From the IMG/VR virus record IMGVR_UViG_3300037541_000077, positions 1-44,101 of that record: a stretch of 44,101 nucleotides of DNA; one strand, 5' to 3'. The notes beneath the pieces are model-generated. The model was not told the DNA's origin, made no database searches, and saw only the letters and a program-made list of their open reading frames with translations. Of the stretch, positions 2,613-44,101 are shown piece after piece. This DNA is from a virus. How positions within the stretch are numbered: the stretch's first letter is position 1; each line of letters starts with the position of its first letter. Both the position numbers and the translations under genes were made by a program.

Positions 2613-2950
2613 TTGAGTGGAATTTCGGTGTATGAAGTCCATGGAAAGCCGTGCTTATCACACCACTTTGCATAGGTGGTTTTGGACCCTTTGTAGATTT
2701 TATTAAAGGGTGCTTGAAAGACGAAGCGAATATCTAACTCGGGATTGCTCTTCTTCACTGCGATCATCTTGCGGCGATCCTCGCTTGTCAGGCGTCCTTT
2801 CACTTCTAGAAAGACACCATTCGGCAAAAGAAAGTCTGGCAGGTAATTGCATTCAAGAACGTAAGCAAGTTTACGTGATTCGTATTCGTAGTTAACTTTC
2901 AAGCTGGAGAGAAGATCAGCAACCTTCTCTTCCAAGCCTGATCTAAACAT
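2600..2950 (-). CDS. Endonuclease I, Holliday junction resolvase (T7 gp3-like)
   Basis: A 116-aa homologue of T7 endonuclease I, which cuts branched DNA and helps degrade host DNA for nucleotide recycling. The PD-(D/E)XK-type active site is visible: Glu in RSGLEEKV, Asp in NYLPDF, and Glu and Lys in FLEVKGR. Its length is close to the 149-aa T7 protein, slightly shorter. It shares one base with the SSB stop codon at 2950. The preceding gene encodes SSB and the following ones the small acidic protein and the primase-helicase, in the T7 order gp2.5-gp3-gp4. Confidence 0.93.
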   Translation of the reverse strand: MFRSGLEEKVADLLSSLKVNYEYESRKLAYVLECNYLPDFLLPNGVFLEVKGRLTSEDRRKMIAVKKSNPELDIRFVFQAPFNKIYKGSKTTYAKWCDKHGFPWTSYTEIPLKWLT

Positions 2951-3519
2951 CAGAAGTCATCATCTTCTGCTACATCAGCAGACGGAGTGACAACAGGATC
3001 GTTAGACTTGAACCCTTTGGTTTGACCGAACAGTGCGGCCACTTCAGTTTCACCCATGTCACCAGCATCTACGCCAGCAGAACTATTGAGTGCAACAACT
3101 TGAATACCCACAAGCTTGAGAGTGGTGCCGTAAGTAACACCATCCTTCAGGATGTAGGGTTTCTGGCGGAATGCCAGCTTAACTTTAGACCCACTGTACA
3201 AAGGCAGTGAATCATCAGTGACAGGTGTACCTTCCGTGTCTACCACAGGAGGACGAGTCTCTTCATTCCAAGAGAACTTAACCTTGTACTTACCTTCAGA
3301 CACCTCTTCCCAAGGCTCAGGCTTGAGAGTAGAACGCTTAGGGTTCTTGAGTTTAGATTCAGCCCACTTGATAGTTTCAGTGCGATCCTGCTCCAAAACT
3401 TCAACAAGCTTATCGTTGATCAGTGCGCTAAGCGAGTACCCAAACTTGCTGGGTTTCAGAATAGCTTGGTAACCCTCAAGGACAACAGGCTCTTGGGTGA
3501 TGTGTACGGTTTGTGCCAT
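2950..3519 (-). CDS. Single-stranded DNA-binding protein (T7 gp2.5-like)
   Basis: A 189-aa protein in the place of T7 gp2.5, coating single-stranded DNA at the fork. Its middle is a beta-rich OB-fold type sequence (SKVKLAFRQKPYILKDG..). The C terminus ends in a short acidic tail closing with Phe (AEDDDF), a hallmark of gp2.5-type SSBs used to contact polymerase and helicase. The primase-helicase here also ends in an acidic tail with final Phe, consistent with competition for the same polymerase surface (inference). Start ATG at 3519 overlaps the RNA polymerase stop by 1 nt. Confidence 0.88.
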   Translation of the reverse strand: MAQTVHITQEPVVLEGYQAILKPSKFGYSLSALINDKLVEVLEQDRTETIKWAESKLKNPKRSTLKPEPWEEVSEGKYKVKFSWNEETRPPVVDTEGTPVTDDSLPLYSGSKVKLAFRQKPYILKDGVTYGTTLKLVGIQVVALNSSAGVDAGDMGETEVAALFGQTKGFKSNDPVVTPSADVAEDDDF

Positions 3520-5855
3520 TAACAGAAAAAGTAGGTGGATTCAATCACTGACTCCGGTTCAAGGTTGCCAATGATCGGTGGTTTAGATTCCGCACCTATT
3601 TGAGATGCGAAATCAGTTAAGTAATCATGCTCTGCGAACAGGTGCATGTAAGTCTCCCTTACAATAGAAGAAAGGGAAGACATGTCAGTAGCCCTACATA
3701 ACACGGAATCGTGGATGAGAGCAATTGGTGCATCAAAGCGTGGGACACTCAGGTGTAACAGGCTAGCGTCAAGGCTGTGAATAAGATTAGGTGCTGTTGC
3801 GTTCTTGTGGTGAAGTAGGTCAACCTCATCTGTATCACCTACAGCAACCTGCATCTTGCAACGACCAAGAAGTTGAAGTTCAAGAGACACTAGCTCTTTC
3901 TTATTCAGTTTTTGATGAACGACAAACCCTGAAGGTGTTGTCCATTCTAAGAAGTCCTTGCCGTTTTTAATGGCTGTTGTTACTTCCTGCTCAATCCATG
4001 ACATAACAGCCATGGGACCAGGTACGACAACATCCATAGCATTCCTTACAGCTTTAACAGTATCAGTAAGATCTTCCTTACTAATCTCTACACCCTTTTC
4101 AGCAAGTGCATCACGAATGTAACCACGATTGCTGTAAGGTTTAGCATTGTAGGGTACGGTCATAACTACCCTTTTGACCACTTTTCTATCCATGTAAGAT
4201 TGGATAGATTTGGGACAATTAGGAGTAGCTACTTCACTTACTACCTTGTACGCATCCTGTGGATGATCACCAGGTAGGACATTTACTAGACGTGCGGTGG
4301 ACTTATCCCTAGCTAATCCTGCCAAGATCTGAAGACCTGAACAAGTAGCATCGGTTGCCACCATAAGACGTGTGAACTGCCTATCGGCAATTACGACACA
4401 ATGATAGTACTCATCTACAGCTGCTAGGAACTGCCAAGGTTCCTCTACATTCTCCCAAAGGTGTAAATTACCAACGGGATCTGTGGCTATGAGTGTGAAT
4501 AATTCATGGTTATTTTTTGCCCATTCAATACGCTCAACCATCGGTGCTTTATCAAGACCGTATGTAGTAGCTACTTGAAAGGCTAACCATTCATCTGATT
4601 CATCAGTTGTATATGACCCCTCTGCAAAGACTAACAAACTTTTTCCAAAGTCTGTATCTTGTGGAGTAAGAAAGGCAGGAATAGGATACGCTCTACCTCT
4701 GTAATCAAAAGACCACGGTATATAGAACTTAGGTACGTCCTTGAACCTTTTCACTGCCTCCATTGTCATCCTTGTACGACAAGATTTCTTAAACTCTTGT
4801 GCGTTCAGATTCATTGTCTGAGCAGCCTCTTGTCTGTACTTCTTACGAGACTCAATGTTCTCTGCAATGTCTACAGGTTTAGGAGGTAGTTCATGATTGA
4901 CAATGGGGAGGAACTTACCTACTGCTCGTTCCAATCTATCTAGTTCTTCCGCAACCTCTACAATAAAAGGATTTAGAGTAAAGGCGACCTTCTGAATCTT
5001 GTTCAGAAACTCGATAGGGGTTTCTCCCTGTATACGGGTGGGATGTCCACGCCTCACCATGTCATGACCACGCATCACCTCGTTAAGGAGATAACCACCA
5101 GCACGATCATTAGTCCAATCGTTAGGTTCAATCAGCATCGGCCAAGCAAGAGGAGCAAACAGTTCTGCATCCTTCATCACTTCATCCTTGATGGATATGA
5201 ACTCAGGTGTGGGAGTTACATAGTTATTTGTCTTACGTCCTTCCCGTCTAAGTTCTTTAGTGAACCAATGTGATTCATGGATAATACAATCAAGTAACCA
5301 ACCACCAAGTTTTACGCGGTTAGCCCTACCCCAAGCATCCCATTTTACATCCACAGTATTCATAGGTCTGCGGATGTTCGTGAGACGTTGATGTGTGCCG
5401 CTGGAAGAGTGCCAATACTTCTTTTTGAGTACGTTCAACAGTCCAGGTGCTGAACGCTCGTAGAAGCGCATCTGGCACTCACTTTCAACCGCTTGGCCGA
5501 TTGCATCACATACGTTAGTTAGCTGGTCGCTACCCTCTTTAAAGGAGAATACTTTATCGAAGGTAAGCTTGAGTGCAATAGCTGCTGATGCTAACGGTTC
5601 AAGCTGTGATACATACTCCTTAACAACCTGGAATTGATGACCAGTTCCACGTGTTAAGCGATCATGTGAAGTCTCCTCAATACGTCTAACCACAAGAGGC
5701 AAGAGCATATCGATAGAAGCAATGCCATATACACTAGCTGATGCATAACTCTTCTCCTCAAGATCCTGTGTGTTCTTGTGTAATCTCTTGAGTCCTTGAG
5801 CTATTTGATCACGCTCAAGTTGTACTTGTTCGTCGATCTCAGCTGGTGTAGGCAT
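3519..5855 (-). CDS. Single-subunit DNA-dependent RNA polymerase (T7 gp1-like)
   Basis: 778 aa, shorter than T7 RNA polymerase (883 aa) and close to the size I remember for the marine cyanophage Syn5 enzyme. Palm and finger motifs are visible: motif A VATDATCSGLQ with the catalytic Asp, motif B VVKRVVMTVPYNAKPY with the Lys and the Tyr that discriminates NTPs, and motif C ALIHDSV with the second catalytic Asp. The chain ends YFFC, an aromatic foot comparable to FAFA in T7. It overlaps the preceding 49-aa gene by 17 nt and has SSB directly downstream. A 21-bp sequence that probably is its own promoter lies inside the gene at 5026-5046. Confidence 0.97.
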   Translation of the reverse strand: MPTPAEIDEQVQLERDQIAQGLKRLHKNTQDLEEKSYASASVYGIASIDMLLPLVVRRIEETSHDRLTRGTGHQFQVVKEYVSQLEPLASAAIALKLTFDKVFSFKEGSDQLTNVCDAIGQAVESECQMRFYERSAPGLLNVLKKKYWHSSSGTHQRLTNIRRPMNTVDVKWDAWGRANRVKLGGWLLDCIIHESHWFTKELRREGRKTNNYVTPTPEFISIKDEVMKDAELFAPLAWPMLIEPNDWTNDRAGGYLLNEVMRGHDMVRRGHPTRIQGETPIEFLNKIQKVAFTLNPFIVEVAEELDRLERAVGKFLPIVNHELPPKPVDIAENIESRKKYRQEAAQTMNLNAQEFKKSCRTRMTMEAVKRFKDVPKFYIPWSFDYRGRAYPIPAFLTPQDTDFGKSLLVFAEGSYTTDESDEWLAFQVATTYGLDKAPMVERIEWAKNNHELFTLIATDPVGNLHLWENVEEPWQFLAAVDEYYHCVVIADRQFTRLMVATDATCSGLQILAGLARDKSTARLVNVLPGDHPQDAYKVVSEVATPNCPKSIQSYMDRKVVKRVVMTVPYNAKPYSNRGYIRDALAEKGVEISKEDLTDTVKAVRNAMDVVVPGPMAVMSWIEQEVTTAIKNGKDFLEWTTPSGFVVHQKLNKKELVSLELQLLGRCKMQVAVGDTDEVDLLHHKNATAPNLIHSLDASLLHLSVPRFDAPIALIHDSVLCRATDMSSLSSIVRETYMHLFAEHDYLTDFASQIGAESKPPIIGNLEPESVIESTYFFC
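5026..5046 (-). promoter_or_regulatory. Candidate phage promoter, copy 1 (inside RNA polymerase gene)
   Basis: Minus-strand sequence begins ACATCCCACCCGTATACAGG and is followed by GGAGAAA; all 21 bases recur at 9875-9895. The core CACCCGTA matches part of the Syn5 RNA polymerase promoter as I remember it, and the GGGAGA resembles the initial transcribed bases of T7 class III promoters. Location in the 5' third of the polymerase gene suggests a promoter reading into the replication genes. Inference from repeat and similarity. Confidence 0.6.
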
Positions 5856-8731: not shown

Positions 8732-9049
8732 TTACCCTTTATCGGCCTCCTTATACCAAGGAGCAGTTAGACGCATCTCAGGGAGGCTTGTAGACCCCTC
8801 TGAGAGCGTTTCTGTGTAAATAGGAGGTGGAATAACAGGATCTACCTTATCCATCTCCTCATGGTACTCCTTAATAGCTTCATCTACCTCTACTTTAATC
8901 CGTGCATCAAGGAATTTCTCCTCTAGCCACCAAAGTAAAGCAAAGACCAAATGATCCCACCAAGGAATACCACGACTCCAATGCCGACGAAGAACCTTAA
9001 ACTCATTTAATCTAAGAGTCAACTCGTTTATTCGTTGTTCTTTTCCCAC
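8732..9049 (-). CDS. Hypothetical protein after thyX, 105 aa
   Basis: Begins with GTG at 9049, 22 nt inside the end of thyX, with GAGG just upstream. The N-terminal half has a helix (INELTLRLNEFKVLRRHW) and an aromatic hydrophobic stretch (WWDHLVFALLWWLEEKF) that could be a membrane-associated amphipathic helix. The second half is acidic, then Pro-rich (VDPVIPPPIY). It is the last gene before the genome-end region. No family recognised. Confidence 0.6.
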   Translation of the reverse strand: MGKEQRINELTLRLNEFKVLRRHWSRGIPWWDHLVFALLWWLEEKFLDARIKVEVDEAIKEYHEEMDKVDPVIPPPIYTETLSEGSTSLPEMRLTAPWYKEADKG

Positions 9050-9699
9050 ATCGCCTCACAAACATTAGGAAGGTGTTGATACAGCAGGTCTTGTACTTGA
9101 CCGGCTATCTGTGCGTGTTCCCGTTGCGTTCCATTAGCGGTACGAAGGTCACAATAATGCAACCAAGACCTAATACTTCCATTCATGTACATCTTAGTTG
9201 GAGTAGCCAGCGGTAACACCTCTCTTGCACACTCTTTAGCGATGCCAGCTTCAAGCAGTTTCTTATATACCAACTCCGAATGTTTAAACAGTTGTTTTAC
9301 TTCCTGTTGAAGGAATAGGTCTTCATCTTCTATTTCAATACTATTTTGTCTATTCTTTAAATCTTGCAGTCTCAATTGAGGTACAACGGGACTACCAAGT
9401 TGAGATGCATTAGCGTACCGTTGACTAAACTCTTGAAAGCTAAAGGAACGGTGCCTAAGGATCTGTGCAGCAATAGACCGAGTAGTATTAATTTGTACAC
9501 ACATGTTCACCATTTCAAAAGGTGACCAATGGTTATGTTCAATAAGATATTTAATCAACCTAGCACTTGTCTGAGTGTTGGTTTGATTAGATGGGTTAGA
9601 TACCCGTGCCATGTAGCTGATAAGTTCTTCAGCTTCGGGAGTGATGTGGATCAGTTGAACAGAGTGAAACAAAGGTTGAACGGAGTGGGTGGGACTCAT
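9028..9699 (-). CDS. thyX: Flavin-dependent thymidylate synthase ThyX
   Basis: 223 aa. ThyX converts dUMP to dTMP using methylene-tetrahydrofolate, NAD(P)H and FAD. The signature RHRxxSxQxxSxR is present as RHRSFSFQEFSQRY at residues 82-95, and LPLATPTKMYMNGSIRSWLHY matches the conserved C-terminal region. It complements the ribonucleotide reductase and MazG-like genes in supplying nucleotides for phage DNA. It is separated from the large terminase by a 200-nt gap containing promoter copy 2 and a terminator-like hairpin, so it may have its own late transcript (inference). Confidence 0.95.
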   Translation of the reverse strand: MSPTHSVQPLFHSVQLIHITPEAEELISYMARVSNPSNQTNTQTSARLIKYLIEHNHWSPFEMVNMCVQINTTRSIAAQILRHRSFSFQEFSQRYANASQLGSPVVPQLRLQDLKNRQNSIEIEDEDLFLQQEVKQLFKHSELVYKKLLEAGIAKECAREVLPLATPTKMYMNGSIRSWLHYCDLRTANGTQREHAQIAGQVQDLLYQHLPNVCEAMWEKNNE

Positions 9700-9820: not shown

Positions 9821-9844
9821 GGAGGAGATTTTTAGGTCTCCCCC
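9821..9844 (-). terminator. Rho-independent terminator candidate
   Basis: On the minus strand GGGGGAGA, 8-nt loop CCTAAAAA, TCTCCTCC (8 pairs, one G-T) followed by TTTTT. It lies about 30 nt downstream of candidate promoter copy 2 and about 120 nt upstream of thyX. Confidence 0.6.
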
Positions 9845-9874
9845 AATTACAGGAGTTGGGTCCACCCTCCCTTC

Positions 9875-9895
9875 CCCTGTATACGGGTGGGATGT
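9875..9895 (-). promoter_or_regulatory. Candidate phage promoter, copy 2 (after large terminase)
   Basis: All 21 bases match the sequence at 5026-5046, on the same strand, beginning 3 nt after the large terminase stop. It is followed by GGAAGGG. The position near the right end is comparable to the T7 phi-OR promoter, which lies close to the right end and can act as a secondary origin (inference). Confidence 0.6.
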
Positions 9896-9898
9896 GTC

Positions 9899-11662
9899 TT
9901 AAACCCAGGTGGGGACACTGTTTTTAGAAGTTCCTCTTGCTTGTCTTTTTTGGTCTAAATTCATACCTAAAACAAGGTGATTTGTCTCACTTTGAGGGTC
10001 ATCTAAAAAGGCAGTAAGCATGTCGTTCCACTCTTCTATTTTACGTTGTTTGACTGTCTCCTGAGCAGAGATGCCCATGGCATCGGTAAAGTACTTAACG
10101 CCTTGTGCTAAAGAGTCTAATCTGTCGTCGTGTTTAATGGCGTACTTTTCCCGACACATTCTACTCATTTGGTAGAAGAGCATGTACAGGAGTCGTTTCT
10201 CTGGAGCTTCATCTTTATTAGAAGAGTAGTCCCATTCTACAACACCACGATCAACGATGAGTCGGTGTTGGTTCATAATGGGTTCAAGAGCGTCAATAAT
10301 CCGTTCTTCTTTACGAACATTAGCTCGTACTTCTTCAACACCAATGTTTTGTTTAGTTTGTTGAAGGTGTTTTTTAAAGAGTTCTGAAACAATACCATCA
10401 CCAAAGTTAGTCTCAATGACAAGTTTGGTAACGTTATACTTTTTACAACCTCTAAGGATGTCTAACAGAGTGTTGTCGGAGTAACCGTCGCGGTATGCAC
10501 GTACCTCGTGGACGTAAAGGAAGCCATTCTTTTGGCTTATGTACGTTGCTGCTGTTTCGTCTGTGCCTCTACCTGACGGGTCAATGCTGCATATCGTTTC
10601 AGAGTATTCACTCCACTCTCCTTGAAGCTGCATCGGGGAGTAGAAATAATCACCTGGTAAGCCAACCGTAGGCAGATCCTTGAGAACATTACGAGGATCA
10701 CTGCACCACACAACAGAATCCGGCGCTTGAGTTGGATTAACGGAGGTAATGATAAGGTCTTGGAACTTAAGTGGGAACTTTTCTGCATCACTAAGACTCG
10801 TATCAAGCATAAATTGGAGCATAAAGTTGCTCCGACCCATTGCTGCTTCTCGTTCCAACAAATCATCACTACTGAATCGGTCTGGGTCTGTTACATCCCA
10901 TGCTTCAGCACCGTTATCGATGTCTTCTTGGAGTTGAGGAGCGATTAATCCTTCGTAATTAGATAATTTACGTGGTACTCTAGCTGGCCAAACAAAGGGT
11001 CTGTAGTTACGTTCAGCTAGTTTACGGTAGATGGTGAAGGTTGTCTGTGGTGTACCGAGATACATGATTCGGCTATCCTGTTTAGGGGTAAGGATAGACT
11101 CAGCCTCCGTGCAGAGTTGAAGGAGTTTCTCACGCATCATCTCAGTCATGGAGTTACCAGGTACCTCGATGTCATCAAGAATCATCAGGTCAGCACGAGA
11201 ACCCGTCAGCTGGCCCGTAATACCAACAGACTTAACACTAGGAGCTTGGTGAGGGCTGCAATTAACATCAAACGAAATGCGACTCCAACGAGCATCATCG
11301 CTTTTGGGTCGGAGGTGTGATAACCAAGGCGTTTCAATGATCAGTTTCTGTAAGAAGATGGACATGTTATCTGCTCGTTCTTTAGAAGCGGAGATAATCA
11401 TGATCTTTTTCTCAGCGTTATTGAACAAGGTCCACAACACAAAGGCTCCGGTAATCCAGGATTTACCTACACCACGAAAAGCTTGGATCTGTAAACGTTT
11501 AGGACCGTGTTGTAGGTAGTCGGCAATAGCGTATTGAGCACGTGTTGGGGAGGGAAGATCCAGTTGTCCCCAAAGTGCTTGTAGAAATAGTTTAAAGTCC
11601 TGTTGAAGGGACTCTAACACGGAGTCCCCTCTAGAAGGCGCTGTACGGCGTTTTGTAGGCAT
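9899..11662 (-). CDS. Terminase large subunit (T7 gp19-like)
   Basis: 587 aa packaging ATPase and nuclease. N-terminal motor: Walker A in QAFRGVGKSW, Walker B LMILDDIEV, coupling motif around MYLGTPQT. C-terminal RNase H-type nuclease: CSIDPSGRGTDE, VIETNFGDG and HDDRLDSLAQGV supply the acidic metal ligands. Length equals T7 gp19 (586 aa). It cuts and packages concatemeric DNA into the prohead through the portal. The small-subunit-like gene lies 2.2 kb upstream, separated by an HNH gene and two low-complexity proteins, unlike T7 where they are nearly adjacent. Confidence 0.97.
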   Translation of the reverse strand: MPTKRRTAPSRGDSVLESLQQDFKLFLQALWGQLDLPSPTRAQYAIADYLQHGPKRLQIQAFRGVGKSWITGAFVLWTLFNNAEKKIMIISASKERADNMSIFLQKLIIETPWLSHLRPKSDDARWSRISFDVNCSPHQAPSVKSVGITGQLTGSRADLMILDDIEVPGNSMTEMMREKLLQLCTEAESILTPKQDSRIMYLGTPQTTFTIYRKLAERNYRPFVWPARVPRKLSNYEGLIAPQLQEDIDNGAEAWDVTDPDRFSSDDLLEREAAMGRSNFMLQFMLDTSLSDAEKFPLKFQDLIITSVNPTQAPDSVVWCSDPRNVLKDLPTVGLPGDYFYSPMQLQGEWSEYSETICSIDPSGRGTDETAATYISQKNGFLYVHEVRAYRDGYSDNTLLDILRGCKKYNVTKLVIETNFGDGIVSELFKKHLQQTKQNIGVEEVRANVRKEERIIDALEPIMNQHRLIVDRGVVEWDYSSNKDEAPEKRLLYMLFYQMSRMCREKYAIKHDDRLDSLAQGVKYFTDAMGISAQETVKQRKIEEWNDMLTAFLDDPQSETNHLVLGMNLDQKRQARGTSKNSVPTWV

Positions 11663-43435: not shown

Positions 43436-43569
43436 TTACCTTGTCCTCGCTTGAGCTTTCGCCCATGCGAAGGAAGACTACGAGTGCCATTACCTTGCCT
43501 GGTGCGTTTAAATTTAGCACGGGATTGAAAGGTAACCTTTCCCAGTGCGGTTTTAGATTTTACTGCCAT
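43432..43569 (-). CDS. Small basic hypothetical protein between DNA polymerase and exonuclease
   Basis: 45 aa, reading MAVKSKTALGKVTFQSRAKF and ending GRKLKRGQGK. Contains TRQGNGTRS, a phrase I remember from small cyanophage proteins of unknown role. Start overlaps the polymerase stop as TAATG and its end overlaps the exonuclease start, which supports translation. Strong positive charge suggests nucleic acid binding (inference). Confidence 0.7.
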   Translation of the reverse strand: MAVKSKTALGKVTFQSRAKFKRTRQGNGTRSLPSHGRKLKRGQGK

Positions 43570-44101
43570 TAGTGTACTTCACTCCAGTTGTTTCCGACCT
43601 TTGCTTCTGCAGCAATCGGGATTCGTAAGTTGTAGTATCGTCCAGCTTCTTCAGCTGAACATACCAGGGATGTTCGTAGTGCGTCCACGTGTCCGGGATC
43701 ACATTCAAATTGTAGTTCGTCATGTACAAAGGCAAGTTGGGAGCAACACAGGTCTTGTGTGTTGTCATGGTTGATCAGCATCCACCGCTTAGCAATTACA
43801 GCAGCCGACCCTTGGAGGAGGTAGTTAAGGGCCTTGTGGCTACCATCAACGCTGCAGCGGCGATTGTCACAGAGATTGATGTAACCAGATTCCGCCTTGG
43901 ACTTAACCGCAGTAACCAGTTTCTCAAGTCCAGGAATTGCATCCAAGTATGCTTGGCGTATCTCCTTGCCTTTCTTACGGGCAGCAGCCTGGGATAATTG
44001 AGGGTCATAACTTAATCCAATTTTTTGATCACCTGCACCATATAAAAAGGCGTAGGTTACAGTCTTTACAAGGCGTCGAGAGATGCCTATTTTATCAGCA
44101 T
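43569..44101 (-). CDS. DNA polymerase, C-terminal polymerase part (T7 gp5-like), partial
   Basis: Open to the window end. Reads ADKIGISRRLVKTVTYAFLY with GAG next: the O-helix/motif B of family A polymerases (R...K....YG). Further on, FVHDELQFECD is motif C with the catalytic Asp of the HDE triad, and the protein ends PIAAEAKVGNNWSEVH like other cyanopodovirus polymerases. The palm motif A region is absent, lying in the part of the gene missing between position 1 and 44101. Belongs with the pieces at 208..729 and 1..247. Confidence 0.93.
   Translation of the reverse strand, partial: ADKIGISRRLVKTVTYAFLYGAGDQKIGLSYDPQLSQAAARKKGKEIRQAYLDAIPGLEKLVTAVKSKAESGYINLCDNRRCSVDGSHKALNYLLQGSAAVIAKRWMLINHDNTQDLCCSQLAFVHDELQFECDPGHVDALRTSLVCSAEEAGRYYNLRIPIAAEAKVGNNWSEVH

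Follow-up and report, generated by a model that had tools for sequence, protein, structure and literature searches.

Our analysis indicates that a perfect 21-bp repeat in the genome of a marine cyanophage is very probably a pair of promoters, of the type known from phage Syn5, for the phage's own single-subunit RNA polymerase. The window analysed here is the whole of IMG/VR record IMGVR_UViG_3300037541_000077 (44,101 nucleotides), in which both copies of the repeat, ACATCCCACCCGTATACAGGG, lie on the minus strand, the one that also codes for the two neighbouring genes (Table 1). Together with its relatives, the window suggests a broader joint claim, which we consider somewhat probable: that in cyanopodoviruses the polymerase gene works as a self-contained module of specificity, carrying its promoter at a fixed codon, that specificity has diversified into about 90 promoter cores because only two sites need to change, that a readable code links core to enzyme, and that promoter 2 launches a conserved, undescribed structured RNA.

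Table 1 Observed and predicted features of the window relating to the repeat pair.
Feature	Position	Strand	Details
Repeat copy 1	5026..5046	-	Codons 270-277 (HPTRIQG), nt 810-830 of the 778-aa polymerase gene
Repeat copy 2	9875..9895	-	Starts 4 nt past the end of the terminase ORF (9899)
Putative promoter 1, 15-bp ACATCCCACCCGTAT	5032..5046	-	Within RNA polymerase gene; predicted +1 = A at 5031, transcript ACAGGGAGAAACC...
Putative promoter 2, same 15 bp ACATCCCACCCGTAT	9881..9895	-	Just past terminase ORF; predicted +1 = A at 9880
T7-like single-subunit RNA polymerase	3519..5855	-	phrog_414, E 3e-216; sequence match and alignment to T7 RNA polymerase
Terminase large subunit	9899..11662	-	phrog_38; immediately upstream of promoter 2
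Thymidylate synthase (thyX)	9028..9699	-	phrog_85; first gene downstream of promoter 2
gp2.5-like ssDNA-binding protein	2950..3519	-	phrog_112; first gene after polymerase, downstream of promoter 1
Predicted 5'-terminal hairpin of promoter-2 transcript	9849..9880	-	Arms ACAGGGGAAGGG / CCCAACTCCTGT, loop AGGGTGGA
Terminator-like hairpin	9821..9844	-	Followed by TTTTT at 9820-9816
Inferred promoter-contacting residues of the polymerase			R177, R204, T209, S657, E659, R665, K667; basis: alignment to T7 and covariation

The initial annotation had placed a perfect same-strand repeat inside the RNA polymerase gene and after the large terminase gene and had judged a chance origin very unlikely. Both points held: the coordinates were verified, the copies are identical over 21 bp, and 100 dinucleotide shuffles of the window contained no copy at all. 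No third copy was found in the window when up to three mismatches were allowed. The accompanying remark that GGGAGA follows the core is true of copy 1 (ACAGGGAGAAACC) but not of copy 2, which reads ACAGGGGAAGGG. The exact 21-mer was found in four IMG/VR contigs, one of which has both copies with a spacing of 4,849 bp, as in the window. The nearest named polymerase genes (tblastn) are those of Synechococcus phages S-CBP4, S-CBP1, 7B11-B, and S-B28, at 76–80% identity, and other genes in the window include psbA, thyX, a class I ribonucleotide reductase, and a split DNA polymerase. Both ends of the record apparently fall in the DNA polymerase gene (its C-terminal part is at 43569-44099 in the end region 43569-44101; at the other end, 1-304, an ORF at 2-304 runs off the edge beside an exonuclease part at 208-729). 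The window is therefore close to a whole cyanopodovirus genome, and the record has the appearance of a circularly permuted assembly that is nearly complete and whose ends do not overlap.

The Syn5 promoter, ATTGGGCACCCGTAA, is established biochemically, which in the literature consulted holds for no other cyanophage polymerase, and has two copies, one of them inside the phage's own polymerase gene (PMC3950665, PMC4538805), and these are the only two promoters in the Syn5 genome (PMC3950665). Aligning the polymerases places this promoter at the same codon as copy 1 of the window, and the second Syn5 copy also lies directly after the terminase gene. Zhu et al., in their 2013 JBC work on Syn5, reportedly put that second promoter near the right genome end. 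The window has the traits of the Syn5 type, namely two copies only, one intragenic at the homologous codon and one just past the terminase, and a 15-bp element; it also has CACCCGTA in common with Syn5, CA after the start base (GCA in Syn5, ACA in the window), and a hairpin right at the second start. The two differ in the upstream half of the core (ACATCC versus ATTGGG in Syn5), in having TATACAGGG where Syn5 has TAAGCAAGG, and in the loop of the second-promoter hairpin (AGUGGUG in the Syn5 lineage, A(A)GGGUGGA here), and their polymerases are just 38% identical. The position is thus homologous, with CACCCGTA shared, and the sequence is not the same. A search for the full Syn5 15-mer gave no match in the window within three mismatches, which is no bar to a Syn5-type architecture since the promoter sequence is lineage-specific in all relatives. 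That the repeat is a probable Syn5-like phage promoter had been proposed at the outset, and the proposal gains support from the shared intragenic position, the lineage-matched copies, the covariation described below, and a T-poor start.

Resemblance to T7 extends to the single-subunit polymerase, the three protein elements implicated, and the TATA beside the start, whereas about 15 promoters are spread over the T7 genome (PMC3950665) and the window phage has two sites. No match to the T7 class II/III promoter consensus, TAATACGACTCACTATAGGG, was found in the window at up to three mismatches. Neither repeat copy has a host sigma-70 site (-35/-10 hexamers), and the number of sigma-70-like sites in the region is not above that in shuffles. 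The same pair, each time with a lineage-specific core, is present in P-SSP7, S-CBP, S-RIP, S-TIP37, P60, and other cyanopodoviruses; in P60 it is 21 nt long and lies at codon 270 of the polymerase gene and 5 nt past the terminase. The intragenic pair was not found at this codon in pelagiphages HTVC011P and HTVC019P, indicating that the feature is not general among T7-like marine phages.

To follow the pair through related phages, as the initial annotation had suggested, we compared 17 named genomes together with some 300 loci from IMG/VR, and found that the exact letters differ while the pair itself is kept, rather than being absent from all relatives. Among 234 polymerases less than 98% identical to one another (a set restricted to relatives with CAG at codon 276, so that this column is selected), the 3' part of the intragenic site, TATACAGG, is nearly fixed, the preceding 12 bases are hypervariable, and 90 different 8-nt cores occur. 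A copy of each phage's own version lies 2–104 nt past the terminase in 87/87 loci with a readable terminase end, a count that is biased because the second site was picked by best match. It is backed by an unbiased test with foreign cores in 76 dereplicated loci: over 12 positions the phage's own core reached a mean best match of 11.2, against 7.85 with foreign cores and 7.77 in shuffled DNA, and in 68 of these loci no foreign core equalled the phage's own in the post-terminase region. Phages 7B11-B (L090, ~3017) and S-B28 (L091, ~3070, oriented coordinates) have, besides a diverged post-terminase copy, an extra promoter-like copy, ACATGACACCCGTAA, about 1.3 kb after the terminase and beyond thyX.

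The two copies agree closely from -12 (counting from the T of TATA) to TATA, and their identity drops to background at -13, which delimits an element of 12 nt plus TAT, or 15 bp, the size of the Syn5 promoter; no gene-conversion tract was seen beyond it. Within the intragenic copy, the third base of codon 275 is A in 234/234 sequences, and all 210 isoleucines at this codon are written ATA, a choice made in 26% of cases elsewhere.

The Syn5 polymerase starts at the G after GTAA, giving GCA (PMC4538805). This G aligns with the last A of TATA, which is invariant (234/234), and the predicted transcripts would begin with ACA at both sites, a placement that follows Syn5 and carries an uncertainty of about 1 nt; a T7-like register with the start one base later is possible. 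The first 12 predicted transcribed nucleotides contain 1.9% T at the intragenic site and 3.0% at the second, compared to 26% in the gene, which accords with the U-poor start rule measured for the Syn5 polymerase (PMC4538805) and supports the promoter reading.

The predicted promoter-2 transcript folds from base 1 or 2 into a hairpin in 74/77 relatives, with the invariant loop A(A)GGGUGGA. Its stem varies between relatives with compensating changes: a fraction of 0.854 is paired when each phage keeps its own arms and 0.720 (maximum 0.749 in 200 trials) when arms of the same length are swapped between relatives. In the window, the hairpin is present in the minimum-energy fold of its stretch, but the 90-nt stretch as a whole folds only slightly better than shuffles (z -1), so the case for this hairpin rests on the comparison of relatives. 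Candidate roles of the invariant loop include packaging, stability, and protein binding. The terminator-like hairpin with its T run recurs in 63/77 relatives (20.8 expected from dinucleotide shuffles), with a mean folding z of -3.06 in that region and -2.77 over the first 110 nt; a strict-pattern search recovered it in 26/76, folding against dinucleotide shuffles being the fairer test. Past this hairpin, a short inverted motif, AATGTCCC-TGGGG-AAGGACATT, recurs in relatives such as L093, L258, and L294. Rfam gave no match in the promoter-2 region of the window nor at that region in three relatives.

These structures raise an alternative for copy 2 that is compatible with a promoter pair, namely that promoter 2 mainly makes a short, terminated, structured RNA or a primer for replication or packaging instead of mRNA. 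Parallels exist in the T7 end promoters phiOR and phiOL and in the phi29 packaging RNA, and the reading is favoured by the 5'-terminal hairpin with its invariant loop and matched arms, the frequent terminator-like hairpin, and the lack of an Rfam match. We nevertheless regard it as tentative and somewhat unlikely, given that thyX lies directly downstream of promoter 2 and that the Syn5 polymerase ignored a T7 terminator and read past it in vitro (PMC3950665), so that the hairpin may act on the host polymerase only.

Both copies also covary with the polymerase. Using mutual information with average-product correction, we compared 14 core positions against every polymerase column in the 234 sequences (effective number 59). 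The highest-ranking residues include 667, 209, 177, 665, 204, 659, 65, 657, 74, and 75. To place the three T7 promoter-contacting elements on the window polymerase we used their residue ranges in T7; 14 of the top 20 base-residue pairs fall within them, though they make up 56 of the 778 columns. Residues 657, 659, 665, and 667 align with R746, N748, Q754, and R756 of the T7 specificity loop, where two alignment methods agree, residues 204 and 209 lie on either side of the tip of the T7 intercalating hairpin, and 63-75 overlap the AT-rich recognition loop. These are the promoter-recognising elements of T7-type polymerases (PMC7939475, PMC4496689). Decoy windows from the same gene (n=366) averaged 1.2 of their top 20 pairs in the elements, with 5 as the highest count, so that none of the 366 reached the figure for the promoter.

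Individual positions show that core bases and promoter-contacting elements covary in an almost deterministic code. At -5, A occurs with K667 (75/82), C with R667 (42/52), G with E667 (18/23), and T with Q667 or N667 (72/77); C at -6 goes with R665 in 180/181 cases and G at -1 with R177 in 163/163. Similarly, -7 is C with E659 or D659, mostly A with Q659, and G with K659, and -2 is C with R204 and T209 or S209, and T with Q204 and R209 or K209. With whole clades held out, residue 667 predicted the base at -5 in 90% of cases (25% for a majority guess) and residues 204 and 209 together predicted -2 in 87% (54%). The start signal of such an enzyme may thus be largely readable from its gene.

Close relatives illustrate the same matching. 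The window and L009, 92% identical, have the same core (CCCACCCG) and the same R177, R204, T209, S657, E659, R665, and K667, while L006, 95% identical to the window, pairs core CAGGGGTG with R177, Q204, R209, R657, Q659, A665, and E667; L007 has core CAGCTATG with R667, L028 has core CCCTTATG with Q667, and the S-CBP1 polymerase has the same 8-nt core as the window's. When disjoint pairs above 90% identity were compared, columns 657, 667, 659, and 209 changed most with the core; since relatives are not independent, this comparison and the decoys lessen the effect of kinship without removing it. Syn5, which is outside the training set, fits the code at 659, 209, and 177, and its fit at 665, 667, and 204 hinges on two 2-residue insertions placed as by BLAST. 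P60 fits clearly at 659 and 177 only, as indels prevent safe assignment of its other positions.

The covariation bears on two further readings. One treats the repeat not as a promoter but as a signal for recombination, integration, or packaging whose two copies stay identical; copy 2 does sit close to where the right genome end is expected, a region in which packaging signals work, and an integrase is present in some relatives. Nothing would make a site for another protein track the specificity loop of the polymerase base by base, however, and the pair is kept in relatives without an annotated integrase (e.g., S-CBP4 and S-SBP1) and occupies positions that are active promoters in Syn5 (PMC3950665), making this reading highly improbable; a packaging role on top of the promoter role is possible. 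Least credible of all is that copy 1 is mere coding sequence, with residues 270-274 touching the specificity loop in the fold, and copy 2 a chance or gene-conversion remnant: protein contacts can make residues and bases of one gene covary, but noncoding copy 2 alone gives the same non-local partners (beyond the encoded loop, 667, 209, 659, 665, 177, and 204 come first, with residue 416 as the one exception in the ranking), the end of the match at -13 speaks against a long conversion tract, and the ATA usage at codon 275 is fixed beyond coding need.

The pair, its conservation, the lineage-specific matching, the covariation, and the hairpin are all apparent in the sequences, and from them we infer binding, start sites, timing, and a reason for diversification. 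Host polymerase would first use an early promoter to make early RNA, that of the phage polymerase included. The phage enzyme would then start at about 5031, inside its own gene, and transcribe the replication and structural genes as one very long RNA; gene order makes it very likely that promoter 1 drives the replication genes, and one promoter reportedly serves the Syn5 polymerase for more than 37 kb (PMC3950665). It would also start at about 9880, right after the terminase, yielding RNA with a 5' hairpin that may either end about 60 nt on at the terminator-like hairpin or continue through thyX towards the genome end or a concatemer junction. Recognition would be T7-like: bases -8 to -5 would be read by residues 657, 659, 665, and 667 of the specificity loop, -2 and -1 by residue 177 together with the intercalating hairpin (204 and 209), and -10 to -12 by the AT-rich loop (about 63-75). 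The initial annotation also raised a truncated polymerase mRNA or feedback control. Feedback on the polymerase's own mRNA through colliding or competing initiation is possible: on a plasmid, the internal Syn5 promoter interfered with polymerase expression and lowered enzyme yield, and it was removed by silent changes (PMC4538805).

With so few targets (two, one of them within the polymerase gene), specificity could change quickly, and the lineage appears to have diversified it; having just two sites, one physically linked to the enzyme, plausibly eased this diversification. Its driver may have been either competition between co-infecting phages or compensatory drift.

The basic arrangement, an intragenic and a post-terminase promoter, is already known from Syn5. 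In a full-text search covering journals open without subscription, we found no report of the pair's conservation at a fixed codon across cyanopodoviruses, nor an earlier one of the matched hypervariable cores, the residue-base code, or the hairpin leader. A 2024 survey of phage polymerases singled out promoter prediction as the critical limit on the discovery of new enzymes, with failure in 18 of 44 families (PMC11475235). In the phages compared here the promoter can be read off at a set position of the polymerase gene, so that for hundreds of enzymes from uncultured cyanophages it would be known along with the enzyme. Evolution has in effect carried out a mutational scan of T7-type promoter recognition in the 234 natural enzyme-promoter pairs; they yield single-residue predictions (667 for -5, 665 for -6, 659 for -7/-8, 209/204 for -2, and 177 for -1) and make it testable whether having few promoters speeds the evolution of specificity.

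Elsewhere in the named relatives, glutamine-II riboswitch aptamers lie just downstream of psbA in P-SSP7 (L004:20522-20575) and S-CBP4 (L003:19742-19806).
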